The notes under the pieces are model-generated. The model was not told where the DNA came from. It saw only the letters and a list, made by a program, of their open reading frames with translations, and did not search any database. A stretch of 64,000 nt of DNA from NCBI GenBank assembly GCA_013368325.1, contig JAACJK010000164.1:868001-932000 (forward strand). The letters run 5' to 3'. Source of the DNA: Ephemerocybe angulata (lineage: Eukaryota > Basidiomycota > Agaricomycetes > Agaricales > Psathyrellaceae). A program made the position numbers and the translations under genes. Below, in pieces: positions 11,774-33,695 of this stretch (its first letter is position 1; every line of letters starts with the position of its first letter).

Positions 11774-12019
11774 AGTGGGCGTAATGGGCGGTCTATTCTG
11801 CGACGGGTTATGATGGAAGGGCCTGCAGGGACAAACCGTAAGATCTACTGAGATGGTTTCGAGATTCCGAATCGACCGACGCGGCCACATTGCACAAGCA
11901 ACCACAAGCACATGTTTGCCATAATTAGCGACACCGAGCGACAGCGACGAAGTTAAACTGAAGCCGCACTGATCTGCACGTGCCCTTGCTTTTCTTCCGC
12001 GTCTTCAACCACTTCATAA
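11774..12019. promoter_or_regulatory. divergent promoter, exonuclease / CMS1
   Basis: About 250 bases separate the minus-strand exonuclease start from the plus-strand CMS1 start, and both promoters must lie here. Part of the stretch is also open in the exonuclease frame, so the spacer may be shorter. Confidence 0.4.
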
Positions 12020-13534: not shown

Positions 13535-14045
13535 TTAGCGATAGCTAGGATGAAGAGAAACATATGCACGGGAAATTCGAATCAAGAGACCGATCTCGAT
13601 TGCCCCACCTAAATACTTTTCAAGCTGATCACTGTCGCTCCCTAACCCAGCTTGAGCATACAAATTTGCTTGTCGTTTCGGCAACTCTTCGCCTAATGTC
13701 TTCCGTGTTACTTTCCACCTCCCAGTTGCTTGAACCTCCTTCATGAAAGTGACCAGTACGCGGTAGTGAGTCGGAACCCCAGATGGAACGAACGATGGTG
13801 CCATGTTTGGATGAAGGGAAAAGAATCGCCCTGAGTCTTTCAACAAGATCCCAGCCTTGATAGCAGCCTTGAGGTACCTCTTTACCGGGTCGCGCGCAGT
13901 GTCGCAACCAGCTTCAGAAAAAACGTTTGGTTGTCGCTTGGGAAGCTGTGACGCGAGCCTTGCAGCATGAATGCTTTTCTCCCCAGCTTTGTTATAGTGC
14001 TTCATGAGACTGAGCAGGACTTTGAAATGGGGAGCGACTGTCGGG
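13535..14045 (-). repeat. two tandem LOTUS-like protein units in gene A
   Basis: The unit at 14045-13802 (VAPHFKVLLSLMKHY to RFFSLHPNM) and the unit at about 13785-13535 (PTHYRVLVTFMKEV to AYVSLHPSYR) align along their length: hydrophobic helix, L-x-x-x-LPKRQ, F/Y-x-x-AG, Y-L-x-x-A-I, then SLHP. They are diverged at DNA level. Confidence 0.7.
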
Positions 14046-15337
14046 CGATCTAAAATTGCTGCAATGGAGGAGGACCCTTGAGCTTTAGAGCTTGGGGATT
14101 GGTAGTTGACTGGAAACTCCTCGATACTCTCTGGTTGCCCTACAGATTCGGTATCGGACTGTGATGATAAGGATTGTTCATCGTCCTGAGGGCCACCGCT
14201 TACAACGGGGGCCGATGAACTCGGTCGCTGTACATGGTCCAAACCATTGCCTTGCGCAGAGAATGCCGATTGTCCTACCAATTTGTTGAAGGGAAAGGCG
14301 TCGTCGAGCTGGGTTTGCTGGTAGGGCATTGTCATTTCGCTCGGAGATAATGAAGTCTGCTCGGGGGTCGCAGGTGGCAAAGCGTTACCCACGTATGCAG
14401 TGTGGCGCTCCGCAGGAATGTCATGGAACGGATCCTCCATCGCAGAAGTGGATGCGCCTCGTTTGCGAAGCAAGTAGTCCTCAATGTTCACTTCCTTCTC
14501 TGTCGTCACCGAATCTGACACAGGGAAGTTGGATGTTTCCGATATGTGCTTGTGGGTGGGCTGTGGGAAAGGCTGTTTAATGGGAGTGTTGTTTGTAGGG
14601 TCCACGAGGTCCGCTTCATAGCGCACATCTCCACACTCGTTAGTGGTGTCTCTTCGTAGCTGATGGGTGCTTCTCGACTGTGTAGGCTCTTTGGACCTCT
14701 GTGGTTGTGGAGGAGAACTTTCCTCCTTCACGACACCAGGGGACCAAGCAAACCATATCGGCACTTGTGCGATAAGACTTGAGGTCGACATTTGCTCTGG
14801 AGTCAGGAGAACAACACGGTATTCCCGCATACGCAGTACGGAGAGGCAGTAAGCAAATGCGGTCTCCGCGGTGATCAGGATAAGGGTGGTGGTGGACGGC
14901 GGCCTTTCAAAGGCGTAAGCTAGCATGTCGACTGGACATGAATAGCGAGCGCTGTAAGCCAACACTGATTATATCGATCGAGGAGTCGTTACGAACCTAT
15001 GAGCATCCTGTCTGCCACATCTTTTCTCCCAGGAACATCGGTCAAAGACACTCCAGACGACTGCATCTCTGAGCGAAGAGGGAGCGCCCGCCCATTCGAA
15101 ACGGCGGCATTGTAGTCCGATACAGCGAGGTAGGCCTTGAAAGACTTTATGGCGCCAAACTGCAGTGAAAACGACCGAATCCTGTCTACAAGTGCGAACC
15201 CCGAAGACTCTGCTTCGGCGGGGCAACTGTCTATCGGATGGTGATGAGCACTGGCTGCCCATTCAGTGGGGTGATTAATATTTAGAAGCCTCACCGAAGT
15301 CCCAGAATATGGCTGTCTCTTTGAGTGAGTGGCCCAT
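13535..15337 (-). CDS. NYN-domain protein with two C-terminal LOTUS-like units (gene A)
   Basis: Three exons (15337-15295, 15230-14997, 14931-13535) give 557 residues from ATG 15337. The N-terminus (MGHSLKETAIFWDFDSCPAEAE to about residue 145) is an NYN domain of the MARF1/limkain type, a PIN-like RNase fold. Visible acidic positions are Asp13 (FWDF), Asp88 (KDVADRM) and Asp94 (VDMLAYAF). The fourth, usually Asp in an S-x-D motif, is Glu115 (ITAETAF). A Ser/Pro-rich linker follows. Two units of about 80 residues (about 388-469 and 475-557) share LVxxMK, LPKRQ, AG and a final SLHP, and resemble LOTUS/OST-HTH winged helices. RNA binding and cleavage are inferred from this layout. The protein is nearly identical to gene B through the NYN domain. 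It ends YVSLHPSYR. Confidence 0.85.
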
Positions 15338-15884
15338 AGCAGAGTGTTCAGGGAGGACAGGTGCAAAGTATAAGAATGGCCAGCCATGTGTGCCCCTGAA
15401 GGCAATGTTGCGAGGTGGCTGTACTGTGCTTAACCAGGTAATCGATACAGCGCCAAAAATAGGCGCTTACGACGTTAGGTATGTCCTGATAGGTTATGCA
15501 GCATGGACTGTGGTGGTCATACATACTAGCTGCGTAATGGGGTGCTTGAGATGAGGAGGAACGCATGCATCATCCGCGACGATGGCTCGTACCCTTGTCA
15601 ACTGCCCTGCTCAAGGTATTTATTGAGTACTTTGAATGTGCTTCTGAAAGATGGCCCACGAGTTCACTGAGATATAAAGATGTCGGATTTATGTAAAAAC
15701 CGTGCAAAACCTGCTATCCTTGTACCTACCGTCCTACTTATACGGTGTTACAACGATATATATGTCACAAGATAAATACGAACAAGTCCCGGAAACTGAA
15801 ACTGGAGGCCCCTTCAGGTTGCATCCGATGAGGGGTCCTTGAAAGATATGTAATGAAGTTGGTATCTCTCGCGATCAAATGCCG
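15338..15884. promoter_or_regulatory. promoter of NYN gene A and 3' flank of gene B
   Basis: This stretch holds the upstream region of gene A and the 3' flank of gene B. The first 130 bases upstream of the ATG can be aligned with the upstream region of gene B, so the A/B duplication took in the promoter. The shared hairpin element is listed separately. I see no gene in the rest. Confidence 0.5.
15450..15468. promoter_or_regulatory. hairpin-like palindrome upstream of gene A
   Basis: AGCGCCAAAAATAGGCGCT has perfect 6-base inverted arms around a 7-base centre, about 112 bases upstream of the gene A start. The same 19 bases occur at 19296-19314 upstream of gene B. A transcription-factor dyad site is the likely meaning; this is inferred. 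Confidence 0.5.
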
Positions 15885-17399
15885 CTACCAATATGTGGGA
15901 TGAAGAGAAACATAATCAGCGTTGTCACGAACCAGTATGCCAGACTGTATCGCAGTATCTGCGTACATTTTGAAAGGTTTACTGTTGGCCGACAACCCAG
16001 CTTGGGCGTAAACGTCGGGCTGCCTCTGGGGCAGCTGCATGCCTAGGTCAGACCTCCACACAGTTGTTCTTCCTGCGGCTCTCGCCTTTTTCATATATTG
16101 GACGAGCACCTCGTATTGCGGGGCGACGGTGGGCTGTGGAGTGCTGAGGGGAAGGGAAACTAATTCGTCCGAGTCCCTGATCAGCACTCCAGCAGCAATC
16201 GCAGCATCGATGTAGTTCCGCAGCGGCTTAGATGAACTACCATAGCCAGCCGTAGCATATACGTCTGCTTTCCTCTTGGGCAGGTCTACTCCAAGCTTCG
16301 CCCGATTAACGCTTGTCTCCCCTTTCCTGCGGTAGTCCTCCATCACAGCTATAACGACATTAAACTGAAGAAGGGCCGCTTCGTGGCTGGAGATGCTCGG
16401 TGTGGGTGTAGACGAGGGTAGCGCTGGAGGTAACACAGAAGGCCCTGGCGCTGGTACTGGAGGCGGTGATGATAAGGGTGGAGCTGGAGGTGGATCTCTG
16501 GGAACTGAGCCCTTGGACTTTTGCAAAAGTCTAGGATGAAGGACAACTGTGAATGCTGAGTCCCTCACTAGGATATCAGCGCCGACTGCGGCCTCGATGT
16601 ATAACCGGATTGCGTCGGAAGTCCCCGGTGGAGAGAAGTCGAATGGACGCCGATTGAGCAGCTGCTCTGCAAGGGACGAGAGAAAGACGCTCGGCTGACC
16701 ATAATACTTGGCATAATAATGCATTACCGCGAGGATTGCGTCAAAAGTTGGAGCGACTAGACCATTTGATTTGGTTGAAGACGGTATGTGTGGCGTTGGT
16801 GGAGTGGTAGTCTGCTCAGAAGATTTCGACGATAGCATGTTGGGATGAAGGGAGAAGCATTCTGTCGAGTCCTTGACAATAACTCCAGCCCCAATCGCAG
16901 CTTCGAGGTACATGAGAAGTGTGCCACAGCCAGCTTGGGTATAAACGTCAGGCTTCCGTTTGGGCAGCTGAGCTCCAAGCTGTGAGATCTTCACGCTCGC
17001 TTGCCCAATCTTGAGGTAGAACTCCATCACACTGACGAGTATTTCGAAATGGGGTGCAACTACCGGACGAGGAGAGGGACCTGCTACTGCTTTGGGTGTA
17101 GACGGCGAAGGGATACTGGTAATCGGAGATTTTGGCAGGAGCATGTGTGGATGAAGAGATACGTAGAACTTCGAATCATTGACCAAGATATTGGCCTCGA
17201 TCGCGGCGTCGATGTACTTCACCAATGGCGCAACGCCGTCGATGATGGTGGGCCCGGTTTGACTGTAGACATCGGGGTCCCGTCTTGGCAAGCGAACACC
17301 CAGCTCAGCGCGGTTTACACTAGCCTCTCTGTTGAGCTTCTGGAACTCCTCCATCACCTCTACGAGTACTTCGAAGTGAGGGGCTATCGCCGGACGGAC
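15885..17399 (-). repeat. five tandem LOTUS-like protein units in gene B
   Basis: Units lie at about 17399-17142, 17075-16835, 16765-16528, 16385-16147 and 16135-15885. Pro/Ser-rich spacers separate the first four; the last two nearly abut. Shared features are the opening VAPHFEVLV-like helix, the LGxxLPKRxPDVY core followed by AG, the YIDAAIxAGILVxDS helix-turn and the SLHP ending. Divergence between units exceeds that between genes A and B in the NYN part, so the array is older than the A/B split or evolves faster. Confidence 0.75.
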
Positions 17400-19175
17400 A
17401 GAGGGGCCTGAAATTGAAGTAGTGGCTCCTGGGGCTTCAAGACCCAAGTCAGAGGGCAAGCATTCCGCGCACATATCTTGGGCCGCATTCGCGGTGGATA
17501 GCGTAGAGGACTGTGACGATGTGTCCGCAAGGAGAAGCGGCGGAGTGGGTGAGGGAGGTGCCTGAGGCTCGAAAGTCGGAGGTCTCTGAGAGAATGAAGG
17601 CACTTCTAAGTCTTCATGGGCTGGTGAAGGCGACCTATGGCAGCGATCGTCGCCCTCTGGCTGCGGAGGAAGTGTCGGTGTATTTGGCGGAGGGTAGGGC
17701 ATTGACGGGAGGAAAGCGTTTGGGACAGAATCGTGTGAAAGTGGGTATTCTCGATTGTCACTGTCGATAAGGACAACGGGTTGCAGAGACAAGGAAGCCT
17801 CGCCCGCTGCTGCCAGTGAGTCTTCGATTTCCAATTCGGGGGACCATCGCTCGGCTGGTTGCGATAGTCGCCCTGGTGAGTGAACATGCTGCGGTGGGGA
17901 GTGCGAGTAGACTGGAGGGCTGTCTAAATCGTGTTCCTGCTTTATTGGCAAAGCATCGGGTGGGCATGATGAAGCGCGTGTTGACTCGTTTTGTCTTCCA
18001 TCGCCTAGATCTGTAGTGCATGATGCTTCGGAACTTGTATAGTGGTAAGCGCTTATCTCCTGAAGTCGCTTAACATGATCATGGTGGTCGCTCTCTGACG
18101 ATGGAGAACTTGAAGGTGGGGAATCCGAGTCCAGGCTTGACCTGTCGACAGAACCTATGCTGTCAAATTGGGTCTTTTGCTTGGGTAATTCCTCCGGCGT
18201 AGTAGGTATAGCGGTTGATAAAGCGTTACCCGCCTCCCTAGTGTGGCGCTCCGCGACAGTGGGGAGAACATGGAAGAGATCCTCTGCTGCAGAAGTCGCT
18301 GTGTCTTGTTGGCGAGGTAGGTAGTCCTCAATATCCACTTCCTCCTCTCTCGTTGCCGAATATGACACTGGAAAGGTGGAAGCTGCTGATAAGTGTGTGT
18401 CGGTGGGGTTAAGGAGAGGCTGTTTCGAAGTACTGTTTGTAGGCCCCACGAGGTCCACCGCACGGGGCACAGCTGTGGGCTCCTTGGTAGCATCTCCTCG
18501 TGGCTGAGGCGTGCTATACGTTTGGGTAGGTTTCTTGGGCCTCTGAGGTTGTGGAGGAAGATCCTCCTCATCCACGACGTCAGGGGCCCAGTCAAAACAT
18601 ATCGGCACCTGGGCGATAAGACTGGAGGTCGACATCTGCTCTGGAGTCAAGAGAGCCACACGGTATTCACGCATGCGCAGCACCGATAGGCAGTAGGCAA
18701 ATGCGGTCTCCGCGGTGATCAGAATGAGGGTGGTGGTTGAAGGTGGCCTTTCAAAGGCGTAAGCCAACATGTCGACTGGACATGAATGGCGAGCGCTGTG
18801 AGCCATTACCGCATATATCGAGCGAGAACACATTACTAACCTATGAGCATCCTGTCTGCTACATCCTTCCTCCCAGGAACATCGGTCAAAGACACTCCAG
18901 AGGACTGCATCTCTGAACGAAGAGGCAGCGCCCGCCCATTCGCGACGGCGGCATTATGGTCCGTAACAGTGAGGTAGGCCTTGAAGGTCTTTATAGCGCC
19001 AAACTGGAGCGCAAATGACCGAATCCTGTCTACAAGTGTGAACCCGGAAGACTCTGCTCCGGCGGGGCAACTGCCTATCGGATGGTGATGAGCACTGAAC
19101 TTTCAGGGGTGCGCTTAGGCAAGCCATCTCACCAAAATCCCAGAATACGGCCGTCTCTTTGAGGGAGTGGCCCAT
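15885..19175 (-). CDS. NYN-domain protein with five C-terminal LOTUS-like units (gene B)
   Basis: The largest of the five NYN paralogues: three exons (19175-19133, 19074-18841, 18775-15885) and 1055 residues from ATG 19175. The NYN domain (MGHSLKETAVFWDFGSCPAGAES to about residue 145) has Asp13, Asp88 and Asp94; as in gene A the fourth acidic position is Glu115. Residues 150-545 form a disordered Pro/Ser/Glu-rich linker. It keeps a motif also seen in gene A (VDIEDYL, then EDLFHVLP and AERHT). Five tandem units of about 80 residues follow, at about 551-637, 659-739, 763-842, 889-969 and 973-1055, each with a leading hydrophobic helix, LPKRxPDVY-AG and a closing SLHP-type strand. Units 3 and 4 are the most altered (VVLHPRL; VSLPLS). 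The extra units could widen RNA binding or act in self-association. Intron sites match all other family members. Confidence 0.85.
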
Positions 19176-19410
19176 AGCAGAGTGTTCAAGGGAGACAACA
19201 AGAATGAAGAGGCATGTGTGCCCCTGAAGTCGTGGTAATCATGCGACCGCTGCTGATCGAGGTGGCGGTACTGCGCCTGATCAGGTAATCACTTCAGCGC
19301 CAAAAATAGGCGCTTAGTCTCCTTTTTCCACGTATCGAAGCGTTCTTCTGGGGAGTCTACTGTCTCGATACGTTATAGTAGCATATATTGTAGTGATAGT
19401 ACATAAATGT
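19176..19410. promoter_or_regulatory. promoter of NYN gene B
   Basis: This short spacer lies between the gene B start and the gene C stop. It is partly homologous to the gene A upstream region and carries the same hairpin palindrome at 19296-19314. Confidence 0.5.
19296..19314. promoter_or_regulatory. hairpin-like palindrome upstream of gene B
   Basis: This is an identical copy of the 19-base inverted repeat seen upstream of gene A (arms AGCGCC / GGCGCT), about 121 bases upstream of the gene B start. Flanking bases differ more than the element does, which hints at constraint. Confidence 0.5.
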
Positions 19411-21513
19411 TCAGTGGTACTTGGGGTGAAGAGAGACGTATGTGCTATTCGCGGTGATGATTCCCTCGTTAACTGCCTGCTCAATGTATTTCTTGAATGC
19501 TTTGGTCCCGGAGACCCCGGCTTGAATATAGATGTCTGGTTGGCGCTTCACCAGGACTGCACCCAAGTGCATTCGGTTCACTTGCTCATTCCCTTGGCCG
19601 CGGGATTCCCTCATGTAATCCACGAGGGTGACGAAATGCGATGCGACAGCGACAACGGGCGTCGGCTTGATTATGCCTGTGGGTCCTGCTGTCGAACTAA
19701 CAGATGTGGACGGGGTAGGGAAGGAAGGTGCGCTCGCCCTCAACGTCGACGGTTTGAAGGCGAGGGCAGGGTTAGACTAGGAGACCTTTGTCAGAGGACA
19801 GAATATGGCACATAAGGGGCTTCAGGACTCACTGGTTCCTTTAACTGAGGTAAGACGAGCTTCGGTGGCGGTGGGCTCATTCGCGAGGAAGTCTGAGGAA
19901 GAGGCTTGCTGCCTGCAGCAGGGGTAGCAGTAGCACCAAAACTAAAGCTAGTTGGTGCAGGACCACCTTTCCCGCTGGGAGTGCTTGAGTCTTGAAACGC
20001 TGTGCTGGTGGTCGAAGCCGCGATACTCGCTGGGGGCGTGAGTGGGAAATCTGGTGCCGACATACTCCTCGTCCTGGCCGGCGATAGTGGAGGGGGAGGA
20101 GAGAACGATAATGGCGTAGGCTCCAGCAACTTCTTCGTAGAGATTGGAACAGGGACAGGGCCGTTGGATGTCGTCGCTGAAGGTTTTACTGTGATATTCG
20201 ACGCCGTGCTGGGGACTTTCTCCAAACCAATTGGTTGCGGGGTTCCTGGGGGTATCCCTGCGTTTCGGCCAAGGACACTTGAGCTCCTGCTATTCGTAAA
20301 GCTAATTCTATCCCCTGGATGAGGGCTCAGTAAGGATGGCATAGCACCCAAGGAGCTGGGTGCAACGAAGGGGAGCGTTGCATTCCGGCCGAGGACGCTC
20401 GCGCTCCTGGAATTCGTGAAGCCACTCCTATCTCCTGGGCGAGGACTCGGCACAGATGGCGCAGTGCCCAAGGAGTTGGGGATAAAGTAGAACCCAGGAG
20501 GAGTTGAGAACGTCATCGACCTGGCACGCGACCTGGGACCATCGAAACTATCCCTGTCCACTCCCTTGCCTTTGTCCTTCGGCGGCGTCACGGCCACATA
20601 GTCCTCCTCCTCCTCTTCAACGCGTGCCTTCGGCGTCTGGTAGACTTGGTCGTCGCCCGAAGTCGACGATAAAGATGACTGGGATCGAGGGCTTCCAGGT
20701 GAGGGCGTCCGAGTCGTGGGAGACAGGGAAGCACCTTTTGGAGCGCCTGCAGCTCCAGGTCCTACCAGGCTGACGTTCGCAGCAAACTCGTCGCGAAAGG
20801 CTTGAATTGTGGAAGATGGGAGAGCGTCACTAGGTGCGGTGGGACTGCGATCGTCGCAGTACTGTCTTGGCGAGGGCGCCCTGAATGATGCACGCCGACT
20901 CCGGGCGATTGGGTGAGGTACTTCGCTTCGCCACTGGTCGGCTTCATCCTGAAGCATGGTCGTATCGACTTCTCCGTCGAGATGGAACTCGAACAGACTA
21001 CAGTGACTATTTCCTGGAGAGAGAATATACGTCTGGAACCCTCGCGCCCTGAGGAGGGATACCCCATAGCAAATGTCAGGGTCGGCGGAGATAATGAGCA
21101 TCGCGTGGTGTGTTGATGTTTCGTCGAACGCATGACAGAAGGCGTCGACTGCAATATGTGTTAATACACGCAGATCAGCACGGTTTCACGACCTACCTAG
21201 GATCATCTTGGTTGCCGATCCAATACGGCCACTAGACGCTGTGTCGACCAGGGTAACGCCAGCGCACTGTAATTGAAAGCGGAAAGCTGGAGAAGGCGCA
21301 TCGTCGCCACTAATATCCAGGTATAATTTGAGGCTCTTCACGGTGCCCATGCGGTCAGCACCAGCTCTGATAGCGTTGACAACCTCGAAGCCAGACAAGC
21401 CTGGTTCTGGTTTGGCAGAGGCTAAGGAGGCCAATTAAGCGAGGGAATTACACTGCAGTCAAATGCCACTCACCGTCCCATAGGACAGAAACAGAACAGT
21501 GTTCGTCTTCCAT
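19411..21513 (-). CDS. NYN-domain protein with one LOTUS-like unit (gene C)
   Basis: Four exons (21513-21474, 21421-21197, 21148-19833, 19776-19411) give 648 residues from ATG 21513, starting MEDEHCSVSVLWDASAKPEPG. The NYN domain has Asp13 in the LWD motif and Asp111 in the ISADPD motif. At the middle acidic site of types A, B and E (KDVAD) it has Thr84 (SATKMI); Asp90 (VDAF) is kept. The linker is long and Pro/Ser-rich, with an acidic run EEEEED and a short tandem duplication (two copies of a block containing GDR-FTNSRS-SVLGRNA). One LOTUS-like unit sits at about 566-648 and ends YVSLHPKYH. It is closest to gene D, not to its neighbours A and B. Introns 1 and 2 match the other paralogues; intron 3 is unique to C. 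Confidence 0.83.
20255..20450 (-). repeat. short tandem duplication in the gene C linker
   Basis: Two adjacent copies of about 40 codons read PSPRPGDRSGFTNSRSASVL and then SPHPGDRISFTNSRSSSVLG, each followed by GRNA. They lie in the disordered linker, so this is a local in-frame duplication rather than a domain. Confidence 0.6.
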
Positions 21514-21921
21514 TGGAAGCTTGAGAGGAATGTTGAGGGAGAAAGAGACCCACAATATCCAATTTTTATACTGCTTCGCACATCCCATACGTTTTCCACA
21601 TGCCTATGGTGGGCACCTGCTCACAGCGTGCTCTTGCTTCAAACACGCCTCCTACTGCCATTACACATATCACGTTTTGGAAACAGTGCAGGATGCTTCT
21701 ACAAGATAGGGCGATCCATTGTCGAGGAACTTGTGTCGGGCTTCGTTGACACACGATCGAAGAAAATTCTTGCAGTCGAGCGACCTGTGAGAGCCATGAA
21801 CAAGGGTCGAGTAAGCCAGGAAAGCGCGTGTCCGTAGCCGAGTCAATTTGCGAGATGAAATAGTGCTGGATTAGATGATGCGAAAGCTATAGGTACAGTA
21901 AATAGGAAAGAAAGCAATGAA
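21514..21921. other. upstream region of gene C and 3' flank of MRPL31
   Basis: A 408-base spacer. A plus-strand frame runs through most of it but starts inside gene C and has no family features. The hairpin palindrome of genes A and B is absent. Confidence 0.45.
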
Positions 21922-22409
21922 TCAGAAACCCTTGGGATTTGTCCGCAGAGTCAACTGCAGGAGACAGCGGAACGGAATGAGTGCGTTTGAACCGCGGAGA
22001 AGGGATGACACACGCACCCTTGTCCATTTTGGCACCTTATGAATACCCTTCCTGTATCCCTTTGCCGTTGCTGAGAAGACTGTGTACTTGTCCTTCGCAG
22101 GCATCTCGTGTTCCTTCGGAAGTTCGAGGGCGCGTTCCTGTCGGCAGAACTGGGGTTGAAGATAGGAACTAGGACATGAGACTGAACACGCACCAGCGAA
22201 CCACACTGCACACCACTTGCTCTAACTGCCTCGATCACAGCGTCCACCTTCTTCAGTCGTGACCGAGCATTGGCCTTGCGCGTAACCGAAAGCTTCCAGG
22301 GGGTTTTCCTGAGAGTGACATCAGAACGCCGTTGAACACGAATAACGAGGAGGACTGACCAAAGAAGACCACCAGACGCTACGCTCGTAGCTCGGAAGGC
22401 ACCAAACAT
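21922..22409 (-). CDS. MRPL31: mitochondrial ribosomal protein L31 (MRPL31 type)
   Basis: A large-subunit mitoribosome protein. Four exons join as [17 protein letters not shown] / [38 protein letters not shown] / [44 protein letters not shown] / [10 protein letters not shown]. The motifs PW-LS-TRKAN, LPKEHEM-DKYT-FS and [21 protein letters not shown] are typical of fungal L31. Each intron has GT-AG ends and conserved frame. The ATG is at 22409 and the stop at 21922-21924. It diverges from SF3A1, which starts 166 bases away, so the two probably share a promoter. Confidence 0.9.
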
Positions 22410-22574
22410 GTTGCAGACAGTGGAGGAGGTCGGGGGTTGAGCGCAAGTTCGCCGCCAGCGCGCCTGCTCGGCAAATATTTACCGTGGGAAGCGCTAGTAT
22501 AATCCCGCGTCAACTCAGCACTCTAACGACTTCCTGTCTCGTCTAGCTTTAGCTTCAACCACCACCACCGAATC

Positions 22575-25339
22575 ATGTTAGAAGTCGCTGTAATTCCAAA
22601 CGGCGGTGCCCTCCTGAATGGGGCCGCTGACCACGCGATGGGCGATGATACCAGGTCAATCTCCCTGCGGTTCTCGACGGGTCTCATTCTCCCTCCCCCA
22701 GAGATAAAAAGTGAGTGTCGTCAGACCCCGTTTCATGCAGGACACTCAATTCCGCGTTCTTTCTAGCCGTAATCGACAGAACGGCCACCTTTGTTGCCCG
22801 CTCTGCCGACCCCCCATCGTTTGAGAACAAAATCCGAGAGGGGCAGAGGAACGACCCCAAATTCGCATTCTTGAACCCCGTCGACCCATACCATGCCTAT
22901 TATCGCCACAAGCTTGACAAGGTGGCCGCTGGAGAGACGGAAGAGGAAGCTGCGCCCAAGACTGCTCAGGAGAGTGAGTCGGTTACTCCTCAGGAGCCGC
23001 AGGACCTCGGTGTTGAGCCCCCGACACCTGAATTCATCCTCGACCTCCCGAATATCAGTGCTATTGACCTGTACGTGTTCTTCTCATCTCATCTTGATTT
23101 ACATTTACACTTCTACGTTAGTGACATTATGAAACTCACTGCCCTCTTTACCGCTCGCCGCGGTCGCCAATTCCTTGCTGCACTGTCAGAAAAGGAAGGC
23201 CGCAACTACCAATTCGACTTCCTCCGCCCCACCCACTCTCTCTTTGTTTACTTCAATCGGTTTGTGGAGCAATATACCAAGGTTCTCTACCCCAACAAGG
23301 AGGCGCTGGCAGAGTTGAAAGAACGAACGAAGAAGGCTGCACGATGGGAGCTGCTGGAGAAGGCGCGCAATCATGCTAAGTGGGAGAAGCACAGGCGGGA
23401 GAAAGAGAAGAAGCGGGCGGATGATCAAGAAGCTGAACGAAGTGCGTTCCTACCTCCTCTTTCCTGGATATTACCTCTAACCGACTTCCTTTCTCTCAGT
23501 TGCGTTTGCTGAAATTGATTGGCATGACTATGCCATCGTTCAGACCATTGAGTTCACTGCCGCAGACGCCAATGCTGAACTTCCTGCGCCAATGAGCGTA
23601 CAAGAAGTTGAATCCATGACACTGGCTCAGAAGAGAATGGCAGCTATGATTATGGAGAACACTGCTGAGGATGTTGAAGCTCACAAAGCGCGCCAGGCAG
23701 CGGCTGAAGCTGTAGCGGCGGCCGCTGTTGGGAACGCAGGCGGTGCACAAGACCAGGATGACACGGTCATGGAGGAGAGTGATGATGAGGAGGACCAGGC
23801 TGCCAAGCAAAAGCAGGATGAGACAAACCGACTACGCGAACTCGCTCGCGCTCAAGCTATGCAAGCTATGCCATCATCGTCAGCGGGACCTATGAAGATT
23901 CGTACGGATTATGTGCCAAAACGTGGGTTTATTACTATACTCCACCTCGCATTAATTAAAACTGACGTCGAACCTGTTCTTATCACAAGTGGGCTCGAAG
24001 AATGCGAAGTCCAATCTGGCTACGTGTTCGATCTGTCAACAGCAGATCCCCGTCGACGAGCTTCAGGAACACATGCGTATCGAGCTGCTCGATCCCAAGT
24101 GGAAGGAGCAACGAGACGCCCTCGAGGCACGGAAAGCCCAGGCATCCGAATTGCAGCGTGGGGCCAACGTTGTTTCATCGCTCAAGAATCTCGCCAGGAC
24201 TCGTGTGGATATCTTCGGTACCGAGACAGACGAGGAGCGGAGGAAGAGAGAGGAGGAGGAAGAGCGCCAGCGTCGTCGGGAGCGCGAGAAGGTTGTCTGG
24301 GATGGACACACCGCTTCGAAAGCAGGCACGCTCGACAAGTTCTCCAACAATGTCAACTTCGATGAGCAGATTGCTGCCATTCATCGTGCAAAGGGTCTCG
24401 GACCGTACGTTTCCCTTACGTTCCCTAATATGCAAACACTAATCACTTTCCTTACAGACAAGACTCCAATGCCATCGGTCCTGGAATCGGGCCCGCGGCA
24501 GTCCCTGCACCTCTCACTTCCCTCCCCCAGCCCCATCCTCGCTCCCCGCCCCGCCCCATTCCGCCGGCTCAGGTGCCTTTGCCGCGGCCACTGTCTCCTC
24601 TGGCCCGCAGCCCGCGTCGGCCTACACACCGCCGCCGGTCATGCTTCCGCCGTTGCACTACCAAGGCCTCAATGCCGGACAGCCGTTTGGGTACCAGACA
24701 CCGGGGTCGTCTGGGCCGATGGCAGCGCTTGCCGCGGCCAACAGCACGCTCCAAGCGCAGGCAGGAATGGTGCGGTCGGCGGAAGAGATGGAGGGTGGAG
24801 CCGGGAGCGATATGCCACCTGCCAAGCGCCAGCGCGTCGCGAAACTACCTGGTGGGGCGCTCTACCCCGAGGAAGATTGGATCAGCATGCACCCTGTAAG
24901 TTTTTCTCAATGTGTTCCTGGGTTGTGGCACATCGCTAACGAAAGCGTTTCCATTTCATTTCCTTATCCGTCCGGCGAACCCTCTTTTCTTGAATTTGGG
25001 CGTTTGATCCCCGTTCCCGACTTGCAACGATATGCGACTATTATTGGGGTGCTCGAATTATAGCATACGATCTCATTGCAGGTGCAGCTTCCGAGCGAGC
25101 CCTCGAAACCGGAGTGGAAGCTGGAAGGGCAGACGGTCACTATCCCGGACCTGCCTATGAACCTCCTCGTGTCGACGCTGCGCGATCGCATCTTGCTCCA
25201 CACAGGTAGCGCCGTGCCCGTGTCGCGCATCAGGATCATGTATATGGGCAAGCTACTCACCAACTCGAGCACGATTGCGAGCTATAATCTTGAGGACGAG
25301 GATTTAGTGGTCCTTAGCGTTAACGCGAGGAAGAAGTAG
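22575..25339 (+). CDS. splicing factor 3A subunit 1 (SF3A1/Prp21)
   Basis: This U2 snRNP component is needed for pre-spliceosome formation. The N-terminal part has two SURP modules: VIDRTATFVARSADPPSFENKIREGQRNDPKFAFLNPVDPYHAYYRHKL and DIMKLTALFTARRGRQFLAALSEKEGRNYQFDFLRPTHSLFVYFNRFVEQYTKVL. Charged helices follow, then the conserved block CSICQQQIPVDELQEHMRIELLDPKWKEQRDAL and FSNNVNFDEQIAAIHRAKGLG. A Pro-rich stretch comes next, then PAKRQRVAKLPGGALYPEEDWISMHP. The end is a ubiquitin-like domain (VTIPDLPMNLLVSTLRDRILLHTGSAVPVSRIRIMYMGKLLTNSSTIASYNLEDEDLVVLSVNARKK). The first intron (about 22711-22767) joins EIK-T-VIDRT; others interrupt both SURP modules, the middle and the part before the ubiquitin-like domain. 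The stop is TAG 25337-25339. Confidence 0.93.
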
Positions 25340-25677
25340 ATGTCGACGAGTCGGAGGTTACTCCCTTCTGTAGTCACGTCTTTGTACTGATAGATAGGTG
25401 GTTTGGTGAATGGCTTTTTGTTCTCTGTTAATGTTACAGGTGATGATAGTACATGGGAGAATAAGTACGGTGGATAATTTACTTCGTACGGCGAGCAGTC
25501 TAGGCCCGACCTGAATAGTGTGAAGTGTAACGATGACTACTACTACAGAGGCCCGAAGAATATAATACGAAGGTCCGTGTATGCATAAAAGTAGGGCTGG
25601 ACTGCGATATGGATACTATGAACGAACGCGGACAGGGAGGTGGAAGCGGAAGCGTGGATGGATGGAAGGGAGGGCGT
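25340..25677. other. intergenic, convergent 3' ends
   Basis: This lies between SF3A1 (plus) and the unknown membrane-protein gene (minus). It contains probable 3' untranslated sequence and no supported gene. Confidence 0.45.
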
Positions 25678-27231
25678 CTATGCTTGCGCCATTGAAGCGA
25701 TAAATAGGATAAAATAGAGAGCCCCAAGACCGACGAATGCAACGTAGAAAATGTTTGAACGAAACGAGACGAGACAGGAATAGCCTGAGAACCCCGGGCG
25801 CAAACCTAAAACCCAAGAAGGCAGAAGTACGAAGGCGAGGTGAAGCGTAATATGCGAAGCTTCAATGACACTATGCAAGAAAGTGGATGTGAGAGAGGCG
25901 AATAATGACTCGGAATATGAATGCAGCGCTTTCCCGAAAGCCGGCAAGAGGGATCAGAGAAAAGGTTAAGCCCCCAAAATGTTCAAGTGGCGGCAACAAG
26001 CGATAGAAAATGGTCAAGTGGTTGATGGGGTCTGCAACCAGAGTGGAGTAGATTGTGTGAGAGCCCGCCGTGGGGTTGGGTGGTCCCCGTTTCCCGTTTC
26101 GCCGATATGGACGTTCGTCCAGGGTTGGAAGGGGGCTTTGGACAGCCTTGCTGGAAGGAAGGAAAAGGGGGACGCCTTCCATAGATAGACAGATGATAGC
26201 TATCCATCTCTGGGGACGCGATCGAGCATCGAAGCTGAACTTTGCTTGCCTAGAGACCCCGTAGAGGTGGTGACGGCAACGCGAGGAGAACGCGAAACAC
26301 GATCTTTTCGGGGGAGAGTGTGGGGGAAGGAAGTTGAATGGAAGAGAAGATGTTTGCTGGTCGGACGAGCGAAAGTCAGATTGAGTTTGAGTGGGCGAGG
26401 AAAGGGGAAGGGAGGGCAAGCGCGGAGGATTCTACTGGATCGAGTTGTAGTCGGTGAAATAGCCTGCTGTTACCGGGAGCCCAGAGATTGTGTGTCTCTG
26501 TTCAGATCGCCCCGCCAGTGGTGGTCGGCCGGTATAGTTGGCGGACTTGCGCAAGGTGTGTGCCGCAGAAGGAGAAGGAAAGGGGTATGGATAATCTGCA
26601 TAGAAGGACGAGTCAGTCATCGTGGGTCGACCAGACAGCGCGGCGGGCCCAGCCTCGGCGAGGCCGCCTCTTGCTGCTCAGAGCAATGGTTGGGAACTCA
26701 CTCACCAAGTGTTGACGGTCCCGCCTGCTGGACGCGGTAATCGCCGATGGGCGAGAGCCCTGTATTTCCCGAGCCTGTGAGCACCGACGTCGGGCGCACG
26801 GGGGGCGTCAGCGGCAGCGACTGGTGCGTTATCATCGACCTGGTGTGGTTAGGCGGTGGCAGGTTTGTGCGACTACCGGACGGTAGCGGCACCGTGTCCT
26901 GCAGCCAGTAATCCTCCTCCTCGCTGGGCACATGAGTTGCTGGGGTTGGCGTGGTTGTGGCGGGCTCCTTGTGGGCTTTGGGGGTGTTGATATACGGGCT
27001 GTGGAGGAGCGATGGGGGTATGGGGATGTTGGGCGGGTGGTTCGCCAGGCGCAGCGAGTTTCGCCTAGCAGATGTCGCTTTGATCGCCGAGGACGAGGGC
27101 TTTGGACTGGTCGAGGCGAGAGGCATGGGGTCCTGAGGGAGTTGCGGCTGCGAGGAGGACGAAGAAGCGTGATGAGAGTCTGGTTTAATACTCAGCGAGG
27201 CGCACTTGGACATGGCCATCCCTGGTTGCAT
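25678..27231 (-). CDS. unknown protein with Ser/Pro-rich N-terminus and C-terminal membrane segments
   Basis: I do not recognise this gene. From ATG 27231 the first exon encodes a disordered Ser/Pro/His-rich region (MQPGMAMSKCASLSIKPDSHHASSSSS, later EEEDYWLQDTVPLPSGSRTNLPPPNHTRSM). It splices after GPSTL into DYPYPFPSPSAAHTLRKSANYTGRPPLAGRSEQRHTISGLPVTAGYFTDYNSI. A middle exon probably follows (RKDRVSRSPRVAVTTSTGSLGKQSSASMLDRVPRDG). The last exon has two strong hydrophobic stretches (HITLHLAFVLLPSWVLGL and SNIFYVAFVGLGALYFILFIASMAQA) and stops at 25678. Exon borders between 26430 and 25950 are uncertain, and the 5' and 3' parts could be two genes. The sharp shift from disordered to membrane sequence suggests a membrane protein with a cytosolic tail. 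Confidence 0.5.
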
Positions 27232-27404
27232 GGAGAGAGCTTAAAATCCATATTTAACTACCGCAGCAACCCAGTTGTCTCGACCCCATGCCTATCATTT
27301 GCTTCCGCGTCCCAAAAGGAAATAACCAGTCACCTTCCAAACGGTTATTAATATACCCGCTAAATATTGTACATACATGAATGAGACAGAATACATGGGA
27401 CCCT

Positions 27405-28690
27405 CTAGGACATCCGACGGCAGATGATAACGAAGACGATCAGGAGGAGGAAACCGATGGCTGCGTCCAGCAGCAGGGGTGGTTTGTGACTGCTTCTCCG
27501 TAGGGCGAGCGGGGCAGGACTGCGGGCGGGTGCAGCCGCCCTGCCGAGCCCTCCGCTCGCCGCCTCCGGTTGGGTTGGCAATGCAGTGGGTATCGTTGTC
27601 CGATCAGTGCCCTTCTTGTCTGCCTTCTCGGAATCAGGTTTGCCCGGTTCCAGTGGGAGTGAATTGGCCTCCAAACGAGGGTCCGAGTCTTGAGACTCTC
27701 GTTCTGAAACCGGGGTTTGACTTGTTGACTGTGATTCTGATCGAGGCTGCGCTGCTTCATTACTGGAATCCGGTTTCGAAGAGGATGGCGAGGAAGTGTT
27801 CGGATCGGGAAGAATGTCTTTATTCGCAACTTTACATGTTGGGCATGTCCAATCTCTAGACCTGCGGAAGGTCAATGACGGAAGGATGCCGGTTGCTTGG
27901 GGAATAGGGCTTACAATGCTGCGAGACGCTTCCGTTCGGTTGGGTGGGATTCGACCGAGCCAACTCCGGCGGCTAGCTGCCCCTTTAAAGGAAAGAAGCC
28001 TTGAAGCCCGACAAGCGCTGTTCCAGTATTTGTGAGCCAAGTAATTGGTATTGCGCAGGGTTGAACTCACCTGTGCGTACTCCCCATGCAGGTTGCCATA
28101 GCTCTTCGTGGTCTGGAGGACCCAATGTAAGTCAAGACACCCTGAGGATCGATACGCGGAAACCCACAATTGGTGAAGCTAATGCAAATCTGTAAATGAA
28201 AGTGAGATGAAGAAGGGCAGCTCTAGAAGGGAAACGCGTACCTTTGTGTTCAGCTCAAACCTTCCACTGGGTGTAAGCATCATGATAGAGGGTGGTCGGA
28301 AGGGGTACTCCGCCGGGAGAAGGATTCGGAAATGATAGAGTCCACCCTCAAATTCAGTCCCTGGCGACCCTCGGAGTGTGCAGTGCCATTCCTACGTCAA
28401 TGGTCAGAAATGAGCAGGGAGGATACAGAGGTTGCTGCAATTCACAAATATGTCATCCTAGGGGTGGCTTGCGATAAGCCAATGAGCGCCGGGGGATTGG
28501 CATAAAAGCTCTGACCTCTAGCGGTGCGGCGTGGTAGTCTGTACATGGGTCATTTGCAAGTTCTCTCGCTTCTTGCATGATTCGCTTCACGGCTACGTTG
28601 GAGCGGCGGAAAGTCAATACCCCACTCGGAGCTCTGGCATCCTAGCGGCCACCCACCAGAGTTGTTCTTGTTCAGAGACTTGGCTGCCAT
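27405..28690 (-). CDS. tail-anchored ubiquitin-conjugating enzyme E2, UBC6/UBE2J type
   Basis: An E2 of the ER-associated degradation pathway. Spliced from ATG 28690 it reads MAAKSLNKNNSAVKRIMQEARELANDPCTDYHAAPLE, then EWHCTLRGSPGTEFEGGLYHFRILLPAEYPFRPPSIMMLTPSGRFELNTK, then ICISFTNYHEELWQPAWGVRTALVGLQGFFPLKGQLAAGVGSVESHPTERKRLA, which is the E2 fold. The Cys in KICIS is the expected active-site residue. After SRDWTCPTCKV comes a charged linker of about 130 residues, then a C-terminal membrane anchor (LLLDAAIGFLLLIVFVIICRRMS). The intron junctions rebuild the motifs exactly (NSA-VKR; TNY-HEE; RTA-LVG). It diverges from the mS37 gene with 299 bases between starts. Confidence 0.92.
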
Positions 28691-28989
28691 GCTGCTTATT
28701 TGCTGGACGTTGAGTGTGGGTGTACTCGATGAGCTAGTTCCGATGCGCTGGATAGACTGGCTGAAAGGTGAAATGCAGAACGAAGGTATATTCGGAGTCC
28801 GGACATGGACTGGGGAAGCAACGTGGAGGTGCGTGCGCTTAGATTGCCGAATCCGTCATGTGACTAAATAGGAAATTCGGAAATATTACTGTAGCGGCTT
28901 CCAAGTTTTCAACAACTCCCTCCTCCGTATCTTCTCCTTCTGGGCGCAGGGGCGGGTCTCTGGCTTTACGCGACAATATCTGACCAGAC
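28691..28989. promoter_or_regulatory. divergent promoter, UBC6-type E2 / mS37
   Basis: A 299-base spacer lies between two divergent starts. Both promoters must lie here. I could not pick out a specific element. Confidence 0.45.
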
Positions 28990-29462
28990 ATGTCGATTCA
29001 CATAAAGAACCTCAAGGTTCGCCAGCGCAAGGGTGCGTGTCGGGTCGTCACATAGCTTTGCCTCGTCACATCTGACCGAGTCCTGGAACCGCATTTATAG
29101 CTGCTGCCACTGTCATGTGTGCACCCCAGCTGCAAGCCATGCTTGGTTGCTGGGCCGCGACAGGCGACCTGCACTCTCTTGAAAAGTGCAAGGGAACGGC
29201 AGAGACCCTCTTTCAGTGTATGAGGACAGCGGTGCGTTGCGTTCTTGCCTTCTACAGCCAGTAAACCACGAACTTACAGCATGTTTCTCGCTTTTGTTCT
29301 CCATCCTCGCGTCCCGAATCCGTTGGCCATTCTCCACTATCACGTCACCCCTTCCTCGCCGGCTCACCCACAATCGACACGCTTCTCCAGCCCATGCCCA
29401 AGAAAATGCACAAGCCTACTATTAATTATCATCTCGCTAGATTGGGAAAGACCATCCAATAG
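28990..29462 (+). CDS. MRP10: mitochondrial ribosomal protein mS37 (Mrp10/CHCHD1 type)
   Basis: A small-subunit mitoribosome protein with a twin CX9C fold, imported by the Mia40 pathway. Three exons are needed; the raw frames hide the gene. Exon 1 (28990-29032) reads MSIHIKNLKVRQRK. Exon 2, after the acceptor at about 29099, reads AAATVMCAPQLQAMLGCWAATGDLHSLEKCKGTAETLFQCMRTA. It holds both CX9C motifs (C-APQLQAMLG-C and C-KGTAETLFQ-C). Exon 3, after the acceptor ctccag at about 29391, reads PMPKKMHKPTINYHLARLGKTIQ, matching the family ending TINYHLARLGK. The stop TAG is 29460-29462. The product is about 80 residues, usual for Mrp10. Confidence 0.9.
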
Positions 29463-29937
29463 ACGCACTATGGATCACTATCGCTTATGAGCTGCTAATT
29501 TACACGGATATCATAATGCTACAAACGGACGGATGCTCTAAAGCAAGAACTTGGTCGTACCTTGGGAAGCCAAGGAAAGGCTAACTGGAAACGTGCGTCT
29601 CATTTCCCAAGAATAACCCTCAACAGGAGTCAGGACCGTCATCCCGCAGTCGCCTTGCGAGTATTCGTTCAGTCTTTCCGGCGTCGAGCCTCTGCCAAAA
29701 GGCAATTCTATTTCAATGCCTCGGAAAAGTGCTGAAATGCGTCTGTCGCGAGATGTGCTGAATTATTGGCTTCTGTGACGCTGAACTGCGAGAGGCAAAC
29801 CGCGTCTGCGGGCCTGCATCCTCACCCACAGCGTGCTGCGAGGACGAACACGCGGAAAAGGTATGTACTGATCTCCGCACTGCTCATATAGCATTACTCC
29901 AGTCTGGGGATGGCTTCCTCAAGGTTGCTGTTGTGCG
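29463..29937. other. upstream region of NYN gene D
   Basis: A 475-base spacer between mS37 and gene D. No frame in it has family features. The hairpin palindrome of genes A and B is not present. It should hold the gene D promoter. Confidence 0.45.
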
Positions 29938-31884
29938 ATGGGTGCAGAGCCTCCGGTCGTAGTGTTTTGGGATGGTCGGTGCTCCACTTCCATCGTCTCA
30001 TTCGAGCGAGATTGCTCATCGGACATTTATCTCGACAGCCAGCGCAACAGTTGCTCATACCAATTCGGGATTCGACGCTGCGAGGGCCGTTTATGGCGCC
30101 GCCGGGAGTTTGGGCGAGGTCAGATCCGTCAAGTATTACACAGATGTGGCGCATGGAGGACAACCCTCGTCGTTCAAGCTTCGTTCCGAACTCAAATGTG
30201 CAGGAGTCACCGTCATAGACACGGCCTCCTGCAGTTCCATTGGGGGGTCGCCAACTAAGATGGCCATGAGTGAGTGCTGCTTCTCTTTTTCGGTGGTCCG
30301 GGAACACTTGAGCTCAGCAGATGGCGCCTGTTTTTACTTTGATCTTTGGCAGCCGACGCCTTCATCTATGCATTGGACAATCCGGCGCCCCGAACGATCG
30401 TTTTCGTTTCCGCCGATCCAGACTTGTGCTACGGAATCTCGCTCCTGAGATTGCGAGGGTATCATGTCTACCTGCTTTCCCCTCGCAATTGCGGGATCGA
30501 TCCACAAGAATTCGGCCTCCCGGGAGACTTCGACGGGTCAACACTCGAATATGGCCCTGGGTCTAACCATCCATGGAATGGGCCTTCGCATGGATCTTCT
30601 CCCCCTCATCCCCAACGCCACCCTTCTCCTCCAAGTGGCCCACACAGCTTCTCCCCCGATAAACAGCCACTTAGGCGAGCGTCGGTGAACGGCCGCACCA
30701 ACACTGAAGGAACCCCGAATGTGCTGCCATCCCACGAAATCGACGAGTTCCGACAGAGGTTCACGAGCTCAAGGCCGTCGCTCGACACGGCGTTCACCAG
30801 CTCCTTCCGACCATACCACCGCCAATCCATCTCCAGCTCAGGCTACCCGAAGACAGGTCCAAACAGCCTTCCCCCTACTGTATCCCAGGACCAACCACAC
30901 CCGGACAAGGGCAAATCCAAAGCCCACACCACTTCCGACCGCACGCCTCATGGATTGAACTGCGTTGGAAGCCCAGCCCTTTACTCCGCGACGACGATAA
31001 GCTCGCGCTCCAACTCATACGGGCATGACTCCAACTCGTATATGCTCCCGAGCGTCTCGACGGCACCGACGTCCGCCGTGCCCTTCTACCGCTCGGACGA
31101 TTCGAAATTCGGTGGCGACGCGAAGTACCAGAGTATACTCCACTCTGCTCTGGTCGCTTCACCCCGGCAACTCGGTGCGACGCCTGGGTTGGGCGCACGG
31201 ACGCCCTCGGTTGCCAGCTCGAATGGGTCGCAGGGCGGAACAGTCATTGCGGCGCCCACGCCAGTGAGGGCTGCGAATTTCGAGTTGCCTCCGGTGCGCG
31301 ATGAGACGTCGACGTCGCCGGAATTTGATGACCCAGGGCTGGCGGGCGTGGGGGTGAGGCCACCGACGTTGTCGCCCGAAAGGATTCAAGTGAGGCCCAG
31401 TCGCCCCGCAACGCCTCAGGCTCAAGGGCGGTCGCCACCCTCGAGGAACTCTGGATCGGCGAACGTGGTCACCAGTCCTCATCGGTCTGGGTCTGCGGCG
31501 GCAGGAGGTATGGGTTATGCGCGGACTGCGGCGCCAGTGCCGTCGAGGGCCATAAGCACTCCTGTCGCTTCGACGAGCGCTCCACCCGCTGTGGCAGCGC
31601 CCACTATTAGTGCCTACACACCGCCTTACCCGCCTCTTCCGGGCGTAGCGCCGCACTTTCTCGCCCTCGTGTATATCCTGAGGCAGAGGCACAATAGGGG
31701 CGCCAAGGCATATGCGCGCACTGCGCTGTGTAATGACCTGCTCAAGCAGGACCCGGAGGTGCTTGTGGCAGCGGGTACGGCAGGGTACAAGAACCCGTTT
31801 GTAGCATATTTTGAGGAGGCGTTTAAAGAGGGGATTATCTTGAACGAGAAGGGGGCTGTGGCCCTTGGTTGGAAGTACAGGTAG
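29938..31884 (+). CDS. NYN-domain protein with one LOTUS-like unit (gene D)
   Basis: Three exons (29938-29974, 30039-30269, 30353-31884) give 599 residues, starting MGAEPPVVVFWDASATVAHTN. The NYN domain keeps Asp12 (FWD), Asp91 (TDAF) and Asp111 (VSADPD). At the KDVAD site of types A, B and E it has Thr85 (SPTKMA), the same change as gene C. The segments CAGVTVIDTAS and SADPDLCYGISLLRLRGYHVYLLSPRN are very close to gene C (CAGVTLVDTAS; SADPDICYGVSLLRARGF), which makes C and D sisters. A Ser/Pro/Gly-rich linker of about 390 residues follows. The C-terminal unit (about 522-599, APHFLALVYILRQRHNRGA to LGWKYR) has lost the SLHP ending. Both introns are phase 1, at the sites used in A, B, C and E. 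Confidence 0.84.
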
Positions 31885-32234
31885 GCTTTCTTCTTTTCCT
31901 GACTTGTTTTGACTCTCTGTGTGTGTTCTTGTTGTTTCGAAGATCGCCTCGTGTGTGCGCAAACATGTATTGCCTGAATAGTTCCTGTACATCTACTCGA
32001 CATTTACTCTACCCTCTCGCTCGAATTGATGCCCCGAATAAGGGTGCGCTGATGATAACGACCCCTGACTCTTCTTTAGACCCTGCTTTCCTGATAATGA
32101 TGGGCGCCTAAGGGCTAAAAGGTGTATATTAGACGCCCGTGTTGCTTTGCCACGCCACATCGTGTGCGCTCACGTTTGCAACGTGTGGCCAAGCCTTCTT
32201 CCCTTCTTAAACAGTAACCTCCACCATCTCCAGC
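31885..32234. promoter_or_regulatory. promoter of NYN gene E
   Basis: A 350-base spacer between genes D and E. It includes the inverted repeat at 32171-32185 and a T-rich part after the gene D stop. I see no gene. Confidence 0.45.
32171..32185. promoter_or_regulatory. inverted repeat upstream of gene E
   Basis: CACGTTTGCAACGTG has perfect 6-base arms (CACGTT / AACGTG) around TGC and ends 50 bases before the gene E start. It could be a dyad site for a dimeric regulator. It is unlike the hairpin upstream of genes A and B. Confidence 0.35.
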
Positions 32235-33695
32235 ATGTCCGCCAACACCGTAGACGTCTTCTGGGACTTCGGTGAGTTTCCACTCGGCTATTACGTCTCA
32301 ACGTGTCTGAACGTTCAACTGTGTCGCTTTTTTCGCCTTTGCCTTGTTCTTAGGGAGCTGCCCTGCGCCTGCGGAAGCCTCAGGATATGCTATAGCAAGC
32401 AGGCTTAGGACTCTCGCGCTGCGATTGGGCGCAGTCAGATCGTTCAGGGCTTATCTCGCCGTGTCGAGCCACAGCGACGCCACTTCGAACGGCCGGGCGC
32501 TTGCACTGCGCTCTGAGCTACAGTCGTCTGGGGTGTCGTTGATAGACTCTCCGGGTGGAAAGGACGTGGCTGATAAGATGCTCATAGGTTCGCCTTACCC
32601 TGTCTCCTGCTCGCGCTCGTGTACTGACCGAAAATCTTGTGTATGGTAGCCGACATGTTCACCCATGTGTTCGAAAAGGCGGCCCTGGCTCCTTCAAACG
32701 TTATCATGCTTATCTCAAGCGATCCAAGCTACGCATACGTACTGTCTGTCCTCCAAATGCGGAGCCAGCGCATCGTCCTGCTTGGCAGTGGGTTGGATGG
32801 CGTTGCCGCCGGGTTGGCGTCGCAAGCGACGGCGTTCTTGGACTGGGATACCGAAATCCTAGCCGACATATCCCAAGGCAAGGTTCCTTGGCAGCAGCCT
32901 GGAGAGGCCAACAATACCGGCCCTTTCAGTGAGGAGGACAGAGTGGTACATACACCCATCGACAGGACTGGCGAAGAGCGCCACACAGACATCCCCACCC
33001 GCCCCACTTCAAGTGTGCATGGCTTAGACGCTGGCACCCAAGTCCTTGCATCCCTCCAGCCGCCCGACTACGAATCAAGGGCCGCAGAGGACTCTGTTCA
33101 AGATACGTCTTCCAATCGAGAGGAAGAAGATGGACCAGCCCTGCCAAAGGTCAACTACTCCTTCATGGGCTCCTCATACCTCACGGGCACGAGGGATGAT
33201 GTGTCCCCACCCCCTGTTCAAGCTAGCAGCTCGTTCCGCCGGGACGACGCTGACGAGATCGTTTCTCCTTCGCCTAAAAGGTTGAACACCGTCCAACCTA
33301 TAGCCTGGGCTGCGGGTCCTAGCTGGGCCCAAGTTGCTCAGAAGAGTGCACAGGATGTCTGGTGGCCATCGGATCCGGAAGGGTCTTATACTGCTGAAGA
33401 TTGGCAGCCTGCAAACAGTGCCAAGCGTAAGGCAGCGTCAGGGAAAACCGACGTTCCGCCCGAATTCAAGCCTCTCGTGGAGGTCCTGAAGGCGTCGAGG
33501 GGTAACGGAATTCCGAGGCCGCTGTGGGGAGTGGTTGCGTTTGAGTTGATCAAGTTGGACAAGAGGATCTATGAGAAAGCGGGGGTGGCGAAGTTCATTC
33601 AGTATGCTACTATGGCGGTTGAGAAGAAGATTGCGCAGGTTGGTGGCGAGTCGGGGTCGCAGTGGATAAAGCTGCACTCTAGCTTTAAGGGGTAG
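32235..33695 (+). CDS. NYN-domain protein with one diverged LOTUS-like unit (gene E)
   Basis: Three exons (32235-32271, 32354-32587, 32650-33695) give 438 residues, the shortest member. It starts MSANTVDVFWDFGSCPAPAEASGYAIASRLR. All four acidic NYN positions are present: Asp11 (FWDF), Asp86 (KDVADKM), Asp92 (ADMF) and Asp115 (LISSDPS). It is the only one of the five copies with the full set. The motifs SCPAPAE and SSGVSLIDSPGGKDVAD link it to genes A and B; exon 2 has the same 234-base length as theirs. After a linker with Trp-rich motifs (GPSWAQVAQKSAQDVWWPSD, EDWQPAN) the C-terminal unit (about 358-438, FKPLVEVLKASRG to WIKLHSSFKG) keeps the shape but few repeat residues. Confidence 0.84.

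Follow-up and report, generated by a model that had tools for sequence, protein, structure and literature searches.

Clustered NYN-winged-helix genes with altered catalytic residues in the mushroom Ephemerocybe angulata

In a 64,000-nucleotide stretch of the Ephemerocybe angulata genome (Agaricales, Psathyrellaceae; assembly GCA_013368325.1, contig JAACJK010000164.1, here C22, positions 868001-932000), referred to below as the window, five related genes, A to E, encode proteins that begin with an NYN domain, continue with a long linker and end in one or more units predicted to fold as winged helices. The NYN domain is related to that of the MARF1 and DNE1 endoribonucleases, but the full set of catalytic aspartates of these enzymes is not found in any window gene; G and F, two members of a second cluster on the same contig, keep the three main ones, whereas all five window genes are altered. 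The NYN domain of A and B is under purifying selection. These observations point, with a probability of about 0.5, to a family of clustered MARF1/DNE1-like endoribonucleases accompanied by pseudonuclease paralogues of the Psathyrellaceae that would act as RNA-binding partners or regulators.

NYN domains and their catalytic residues

The Pfam NYN family (PF01936) was detected above cut-off in all five proteins (A 6.7e-17, B 8.8e-16, C 2.5e-6, D 1.3e-7, E 3.6e-13); it was the sole Pfam family above cut-off in A-E, and no RRM was found beside it. The predicted fold of D is that of a MARF1-type NYN domain, with PIN-like alternating beta-alpha elements, and both results bear out the NYN identity proposed in a preliminary description of this DNA. 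Between A and B (type I) the domain is 89% identical, and between C and D (type II) 43%, while C or D share 26-33% with A, B and E.

In the parts of the MARF1 literature drawn on here, the site of the human protein consists of D358, D426, D427 and D452, with the D426A/D427A change strongly lowering activity (PMC6294520), and D178, D215, D246 and D272 of the mouse protein are reported as required (PMC10226599). The mouse positions were transferred to the fungal domains by alignment, and 143 NYN rows were compared (P0133 yielded none), of which 12 were set aside as stemming from badly starting or ending models (P0080, P0063, P0003 twice, the second domain of P0004, P0113, P0093, P0095, P0119, P0120, P0123 and P0124). 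The commonest fungal pattern comprises WDxEN, an aspartate within a D/N/E-V-A-D motif, SGDRD and, mostly, glutamate at 215. The aspartates at 178, 246 and 272 are kept in 123 of the 131 whole rows: 108 of 109 outside the Psathyrellaceae and 15 of 22 inside, in a sample drawn mainly with the canonical query G and with family membership assigned by genus, as we take these genera to be placed.

At positions 178/215/246/272, A reads D-A-D-E, B D-T-D-E, C and D both D-D-T-D, and E D-A-D-D; in the second cluster, G reads D-E-D-D, F and H D-S-D-D, and in gene I position 246 falls in a gap and 272 is N. Hence D272 has become E in A and B, D246 is lost in C and D, and the acid at 215 is lost in A, B and E. 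The asparagine of WDxEN is replaced by serine in A, B, E and H (WD-x-x-S) and by alanine in C and D (WDASA). In C and D, as in three Candolleomyces proteins related to D, the lost D246 site reads GS(P/A)(A/T)K; C and D are without an equivalent of human residue 426, and canonical fungal members already carry K at 427. The altered sites therefore argue against calling all window genes nucleases. The suggestion of a MARF1-type layout is supported as to the NYN domain, but had missed the changes in its active site.

Evidence that the altered domain of A and B persists comes from the comparison of the two. In the NYN domain, nonsynonymous divergence (dN) is 0.058 and synonymous divergence (dS) 0.449, giving a ratio of 0.13 by NG86 and 0.17 by YN00; in the linker the ratios are 0.42 and 0.70, respectively. 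The value of 0.13 argues that the altered A/B domain is being kept.

C-terminal winged-helix units and comparison with known proteins

The C-terminal unit is repeated one to five times per protein. A carries two units (13805-14038 and 13541-13777, minus strand, residues 391-468 and 478-556) and B five (17148-17387, 16839-17060, 16533-16757, 16164-16367 and 15891-16127, minus strand, residues 556-635, 665-738, 766-840, 896-963 and 976-1054), while C (19417-19647, minus strand, residues 571-647), D (31645-31845, plus strand, residues 521-587) and E (33453-33686, plus strand, residues 359-436) carry one each; the profile of the unit was seeded with the window units, and their recovery by it is by construction. 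An AlphaFold 2 model of the fifth unit of B has a predicted local distance difference test score (pLDDT) of 95.3 and the secondary structure H-H-h-H-E-E, a model of full-length D places helices at residues 523-581 with high pLDDT, and structure comparison of the unit returned winged helices in general as best matches. On these models, the C-terminal unit is confidently predicted to be a winged helix.

Its assignment to a known family is another matter. The OST-HTH/LOTUS family (PF12872) gave no match in the five proteins (E<=1), nor in 10 units or 42 units (E<=10), and genome-wide there was none over cut-off and one below it, on another contig; unit profiles run against PDB sequences returned nothing better than E 0.24. 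Egalitarian contains "Egl domains" that are described as LOTUS-like winged helices (PMC13186709, in part), and a LOTUS-like Egl protein was the only LOTUS-linked structure recognised among the 50 structural rows listed, which excludes nothing. Of the NYN-plus-LOTUS layout put forward earlier, then, the C-terminal winged helices are retained as predictions, whereas their identity as LOTUS domains is putative, with no PF12872 match in the units. A recurring C-terminal winged helix without a Pfam match merits description as a domain in itself.

The closest architectural parallel considered here is Arabidopsis DNE1, with an N-terminal NYN domain and two C-terminal LOTUS domains in the part of the source used (PMC10226599). 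The fungal proteins likewise have an N-terminal NYN domain followed by C-terminal units of winged-helix type, A being equal in count, and of the four catalytic aspartates three are preserved in G and F, with E at the fourth in G; in contrast to DNE1 as described there, the fungal units lack an OST-HTH/LOTUS match, the window sites are altered and the genes are clustered. Animal MARF1 is described with an NYN domain, two RRMs and eight LOTUS domains (PMC6294520, in part), and differs from A-E, which have no RRM match, fewer winged-helix units, the NYN domain at the very N-terminus and altered sites. Because the complete catalytic residues and the LOTUS sequence signature of the MARF1/DNE1 group were both not found, the window set is filed as an NYN-winged-helix variant, which may work like the RNA-binding part of that group. 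Among the titles and abstract starts listed by searches of openly licensed literature, none described a fungal NYN-winged-helix family, and no paper on the E. angulata genome was listed. When prokaryote genomes were searched with an NYN alignment of nine rows, 55 pattern matches came up, none of which was confirmed as a relative.

Proposed roles and competing explanations

In the reading that we prefer, G and F would most likely be endoribonucleases in which RNA is gripped by the C-terminal winged helix and cut by the N-terminal NYN domain. A to E would be duplicates with changed active sites and kept folds, confined to the Psathyrellaceae as far as sampled. Their winged-helix units would bind RNA, their NYN domains would pair with each other or with the active G and F, and as pseudonuclease partners or competitors they could raise, redirect or block cleavage. 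Domain content, predicted folds, clustering, residue changes and selection on A and B are seen in the data, while RNA binding, pairing, loss of catalysis and a regulatory role are our inference. There is a precedent in Regnase-1, where a dead PIN domain is reported to rescue an active partner in vitro within a head-to-tail dimer (PMC4772114, in part); Regnase-1 differs in belonging to another PIN subfamily, in carrying a zinc finger rather than winged helices and in that its dead partner was engineered.

A number of points weigh against this proposal. The evidence consists of sequences and predicted structures, and the expression, binding and activity of A-E are putative; pairing between paralogues would be modelled on Regnase-1, from outside the subfamily, and the dN/dS values cover the A/B pair only. 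Since the main homologue query was G (best 120 of 393 matches listed), the sample favours canonical members, and it may lack altered ones from outside the Psathyrellaceae. Structurally, the C-terminal unit is matched best by winged helices of DNA replication, not by RNA-binding ones. At the active site, the conservative change of D272 to E in A and B could still allow some metal binding, E retains D178, D246 and D272, and loss of the acid at 215 alone may not abolish activity because F, otherwise canonical, also lacks it; E and A/B might keep some activity.

These last observations also speak for the view that all members, A to E included, are still endoribonucleases in which the altered positions are tolerated, nearby acids hold the metal and target choice alone differs, a view to which one could add that A and B keep D246, with an acid at 272, and that C and D keep 178, 215 and 272. 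It is nevertheless unlikely, given that all four aspartates are reported as required in mouse MARF1 and that the human 426/427 change strongly reduces activity in the accounts cited above, that C and D have no 426 equivalent, and that the WDxEN stretch reads WD-x-x-S in A, B and E, and WDASA in the type II pair. The replication-type structural matches would, in turn, suit winged helices that bind DNA or proteins rather than RNA, in a set acting in replication or transcription control and not in RNA decay; we regard this as improbable. Decay of the window copies to functionless pseudogenes, in line with the long branches of C and D, the changed catalytic residues and the weakly conserved A-B linker, is a shade more doubtful still in view of five models open over three to four exons, the A/B NYN ratio of 0.13, the Candolleomyces relatives of D and E, those of D with its replacement motif intact, and the retained winged-helix units.

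A further reading arises from complementary losses in neighbouring genes (B beside C, D beside E): type I members keep D246 and lose the 215 acid, as well as D272 in A and B, and type II members keep 178, 215 and 272 and lose the D246 site. Type I/type II heterodimers that jointly rebuild or regulate a nuclease, as an ink-cap system for RNA control or genome defence that is clustered and evolves fast and that none of the listed papers appears to describe, are a long shot to which we give little credence. Nothing bearing on genome defence, either way, came out of the analysis. MARF1-type NYN nucleases have been studied in animals and plants, and a clustered fungal family adds to these a set worth testing in RNA control; the copies in one mushroom family, with a kept fold and a changed cutting site, offer a natural series on what becomes of a nuclease scaffold after catalysis changes, and the question is tractable in the laboratory relative Coprinopsis cinerea, which has a canonical member (P0006).

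Gene organisation, history and surroundings

Five spliced gene models bear out the order A, B, C on the minus strand, an intervening block, and D, E on the plus strand, and sister genes do sit at mirrored positions (type I, I, II / II, I) and point in opposite directions. Gene A (13535-15337, minus; exons 15295-15337, 14997-15230 and 13535-14931) encodes 557 residues, with the NYN domain at 8-149, a long linker and its two winged-helix units; gene B (15885-19175, minus; exons 19133-19175, 18841-19074 and 15885-18775), a tandem duplicate of A that takes in upstream DNA, encodes 1055, again with a long linker before its five units. Gene C (19411-21513, minus; exons 21474-21513, 21197-21421, 19833-21148 and 19411-19776; 648 residues), gene D (29938-31884, plus; exons 29938-29974, 30039-30269 and 30353-31884; 599 residues) and gene E (32235-33695, plus; exons 32235-32271, 32354-32587 and 32650-33695; 438 residues) each combine NYN domain, linker and single unit. 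The D protein is identical, letter for letter, to the public E. angulata protein P0121, a match that checks the model of D alone among A-E. All introns of A-E are GT..AG, the first two being of phase 1 at homologous positions. A 59-nucleotide stretch upstream of A (15411-15469) and of B (19258-19316), 86% identical, holds the hairpin-like AGCGCCAAAAATAGGCGCT, which may be a promoter element that survived the duplication.

The five-gene set described earlier is present, but is part of a larger one of nine genes in two clusters. When the genome (58.7 Mb, 232 contigs) was searched with the NYN family profile, NYN pieces and C-terminal pieces, the listed protein-search matches below E 0.05 all lay on C22 at 794-902 kb, with weak matches elsewhere on C197 (E 0.147) and, for the winged-helix unit, at three places (E 0.43-0.49). 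Four further genes lie on C22 at 794-800.5 kb, 81 kb from the window cluster and all on the minus strand: H (799116-800460; 411 residues, identical to the public protein P0130), G (797270-798865; identical to E. angulata P0005 over the 160 residues compared, not throughout), F (795427-796868) and I (794037-795079; model incomplete). Relative to gene A, G and F start some 83-85 kb earlier on the contig. Phase-1 introns at the two matching places recur in all nine genes, the first intron of I being GC..AG. Adjoining H, at C22:800777-808795, are tandem near-identical gene copies at a spacing of about 3.2 kb, with a glycine-rich N-terminal half, the first of which has a Pfam match below cut-off only.

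Two more Pfam NYN places, at 537 kb on C38 and 597 kb on C134, were treated as being of a different kind because their match is limited to the later part of the NYN profile and the searches with the window NYN domains did not list them. By eye, these genes (C134:596-600 kb; C38:535-538 kb) seem to contain a series of NYN-like modules, of which one has an intact TGDRDF stretch and the rest are degenerate, the intact pieces alone matching Pfam; they possibly unite active and altered NYN domains within one protein.

The history of the family was approached with a larger tree of 114 of 141 rows (the 143 minus P0080 and P0063, with polypores and some others thinned to every fourth) and a smaller one of 38 hand-picked rows, excluding I and its relative. 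In the larger tree C and D fall together with three Candolleomyces proteins (100/100), to which D is the closer of the two (100/88). E groups with four Candolleomyces proteins (100/96) and H with a Coprinellus domain (100/97), and a single group unites A, B, E and H with their relatives (98/79 with 114 rows, 99/100 with 38). The exact placing of C and D is weakened by their long branches. A clade of A, B and C, which the preliminary description had named as the outcome contrary to its pairing of sister genes, was rejected in the approximately unbiased test (p-AU 0.00037, 38 rows), and the pairing of C with D is upheld. That of A and B with E holds to the extent that they share one group with E and H, p-AU values being compatible with either as the nearest relative: 0.41 for A, B and E with four Candolleomyces relatives (0.37 including P0129) and 0.14 for A, B and H. 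Both duplications appear to predate the split from Candolleomyces. The inverted duplication of a two-gene pair suggested for the mirror pattern is compatible with it, as a single such event, but is only one compatible history, as A and B may be nearest to E or to H; no inverted DNA pair of at least 40 nucleotides occurs in window 12500-34200, a result that is uninformative at this divergence.

A search with D returned four proteins, from E. angulata and three Candolleomyces, and suggests that type II sequences are confined to the Psathyrellaceae, although it rests on shared exact words and did not recover C itself. Among the best 120 of 393 matches listed, the family as a whole runs through many Agaricomycetes. 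Clustering recurs: in a count over 133 listed homologues with named sources, 18 of the 19 named species or strains with at least two listed members have at least two on contigs of equal length, taken to be one and the same. Gene order is also shared, with an H-type and then a G-type domain in the Coprinellus model P0001 and an F-type and then an I-type domain in the Candolleomyces model P0071, both as in E. angulata. In three Candolleomyces species, D-like and E-like locus tags are two to four numbers apart (2811/2814, 7011/7015 and 9979/9977); the E-like partner in C. eurysporus, P0129, falls just outside the E clade (98/69). P0128 of Candolleomyces aberdarensis joins an E-like NYN protein to a cap guanine-N7 methyltransferase, and probably represents two neighbouring genes in one model because the only place found for this methyltransferase family in E. 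angulata lies on C22, some 70 kb past E.

The block between C and D had been described as five unrelated housekeeping genes; unrelated genes are indeed present, but four were identified. These are a mitochondrial L31 gene, a PRP21-like splicing gene with Surp modules, which we take to be of the SF3A1 type, a gene with a RanBP zinc finger below cut-off and a CHCH-type gene, presumably MRP10-like. The latter lies upstream of D (28990-29228, plus strand), where it was located by tblastn with the N-terminus of P0124, whose own CHCH match is under cut-off; two Candolleomyces models (P0123 and P0124) begin with this gene that precedes D in the window. On the other flank, near gene A, an exon at 11249-12004 (minus strand), for which Pfam run on that exon alone gave nothing, contains the motif FLVLDIEGTCN, which by eye we take to be reminiscent of ERI-1-type 3'-5' exonucleases.

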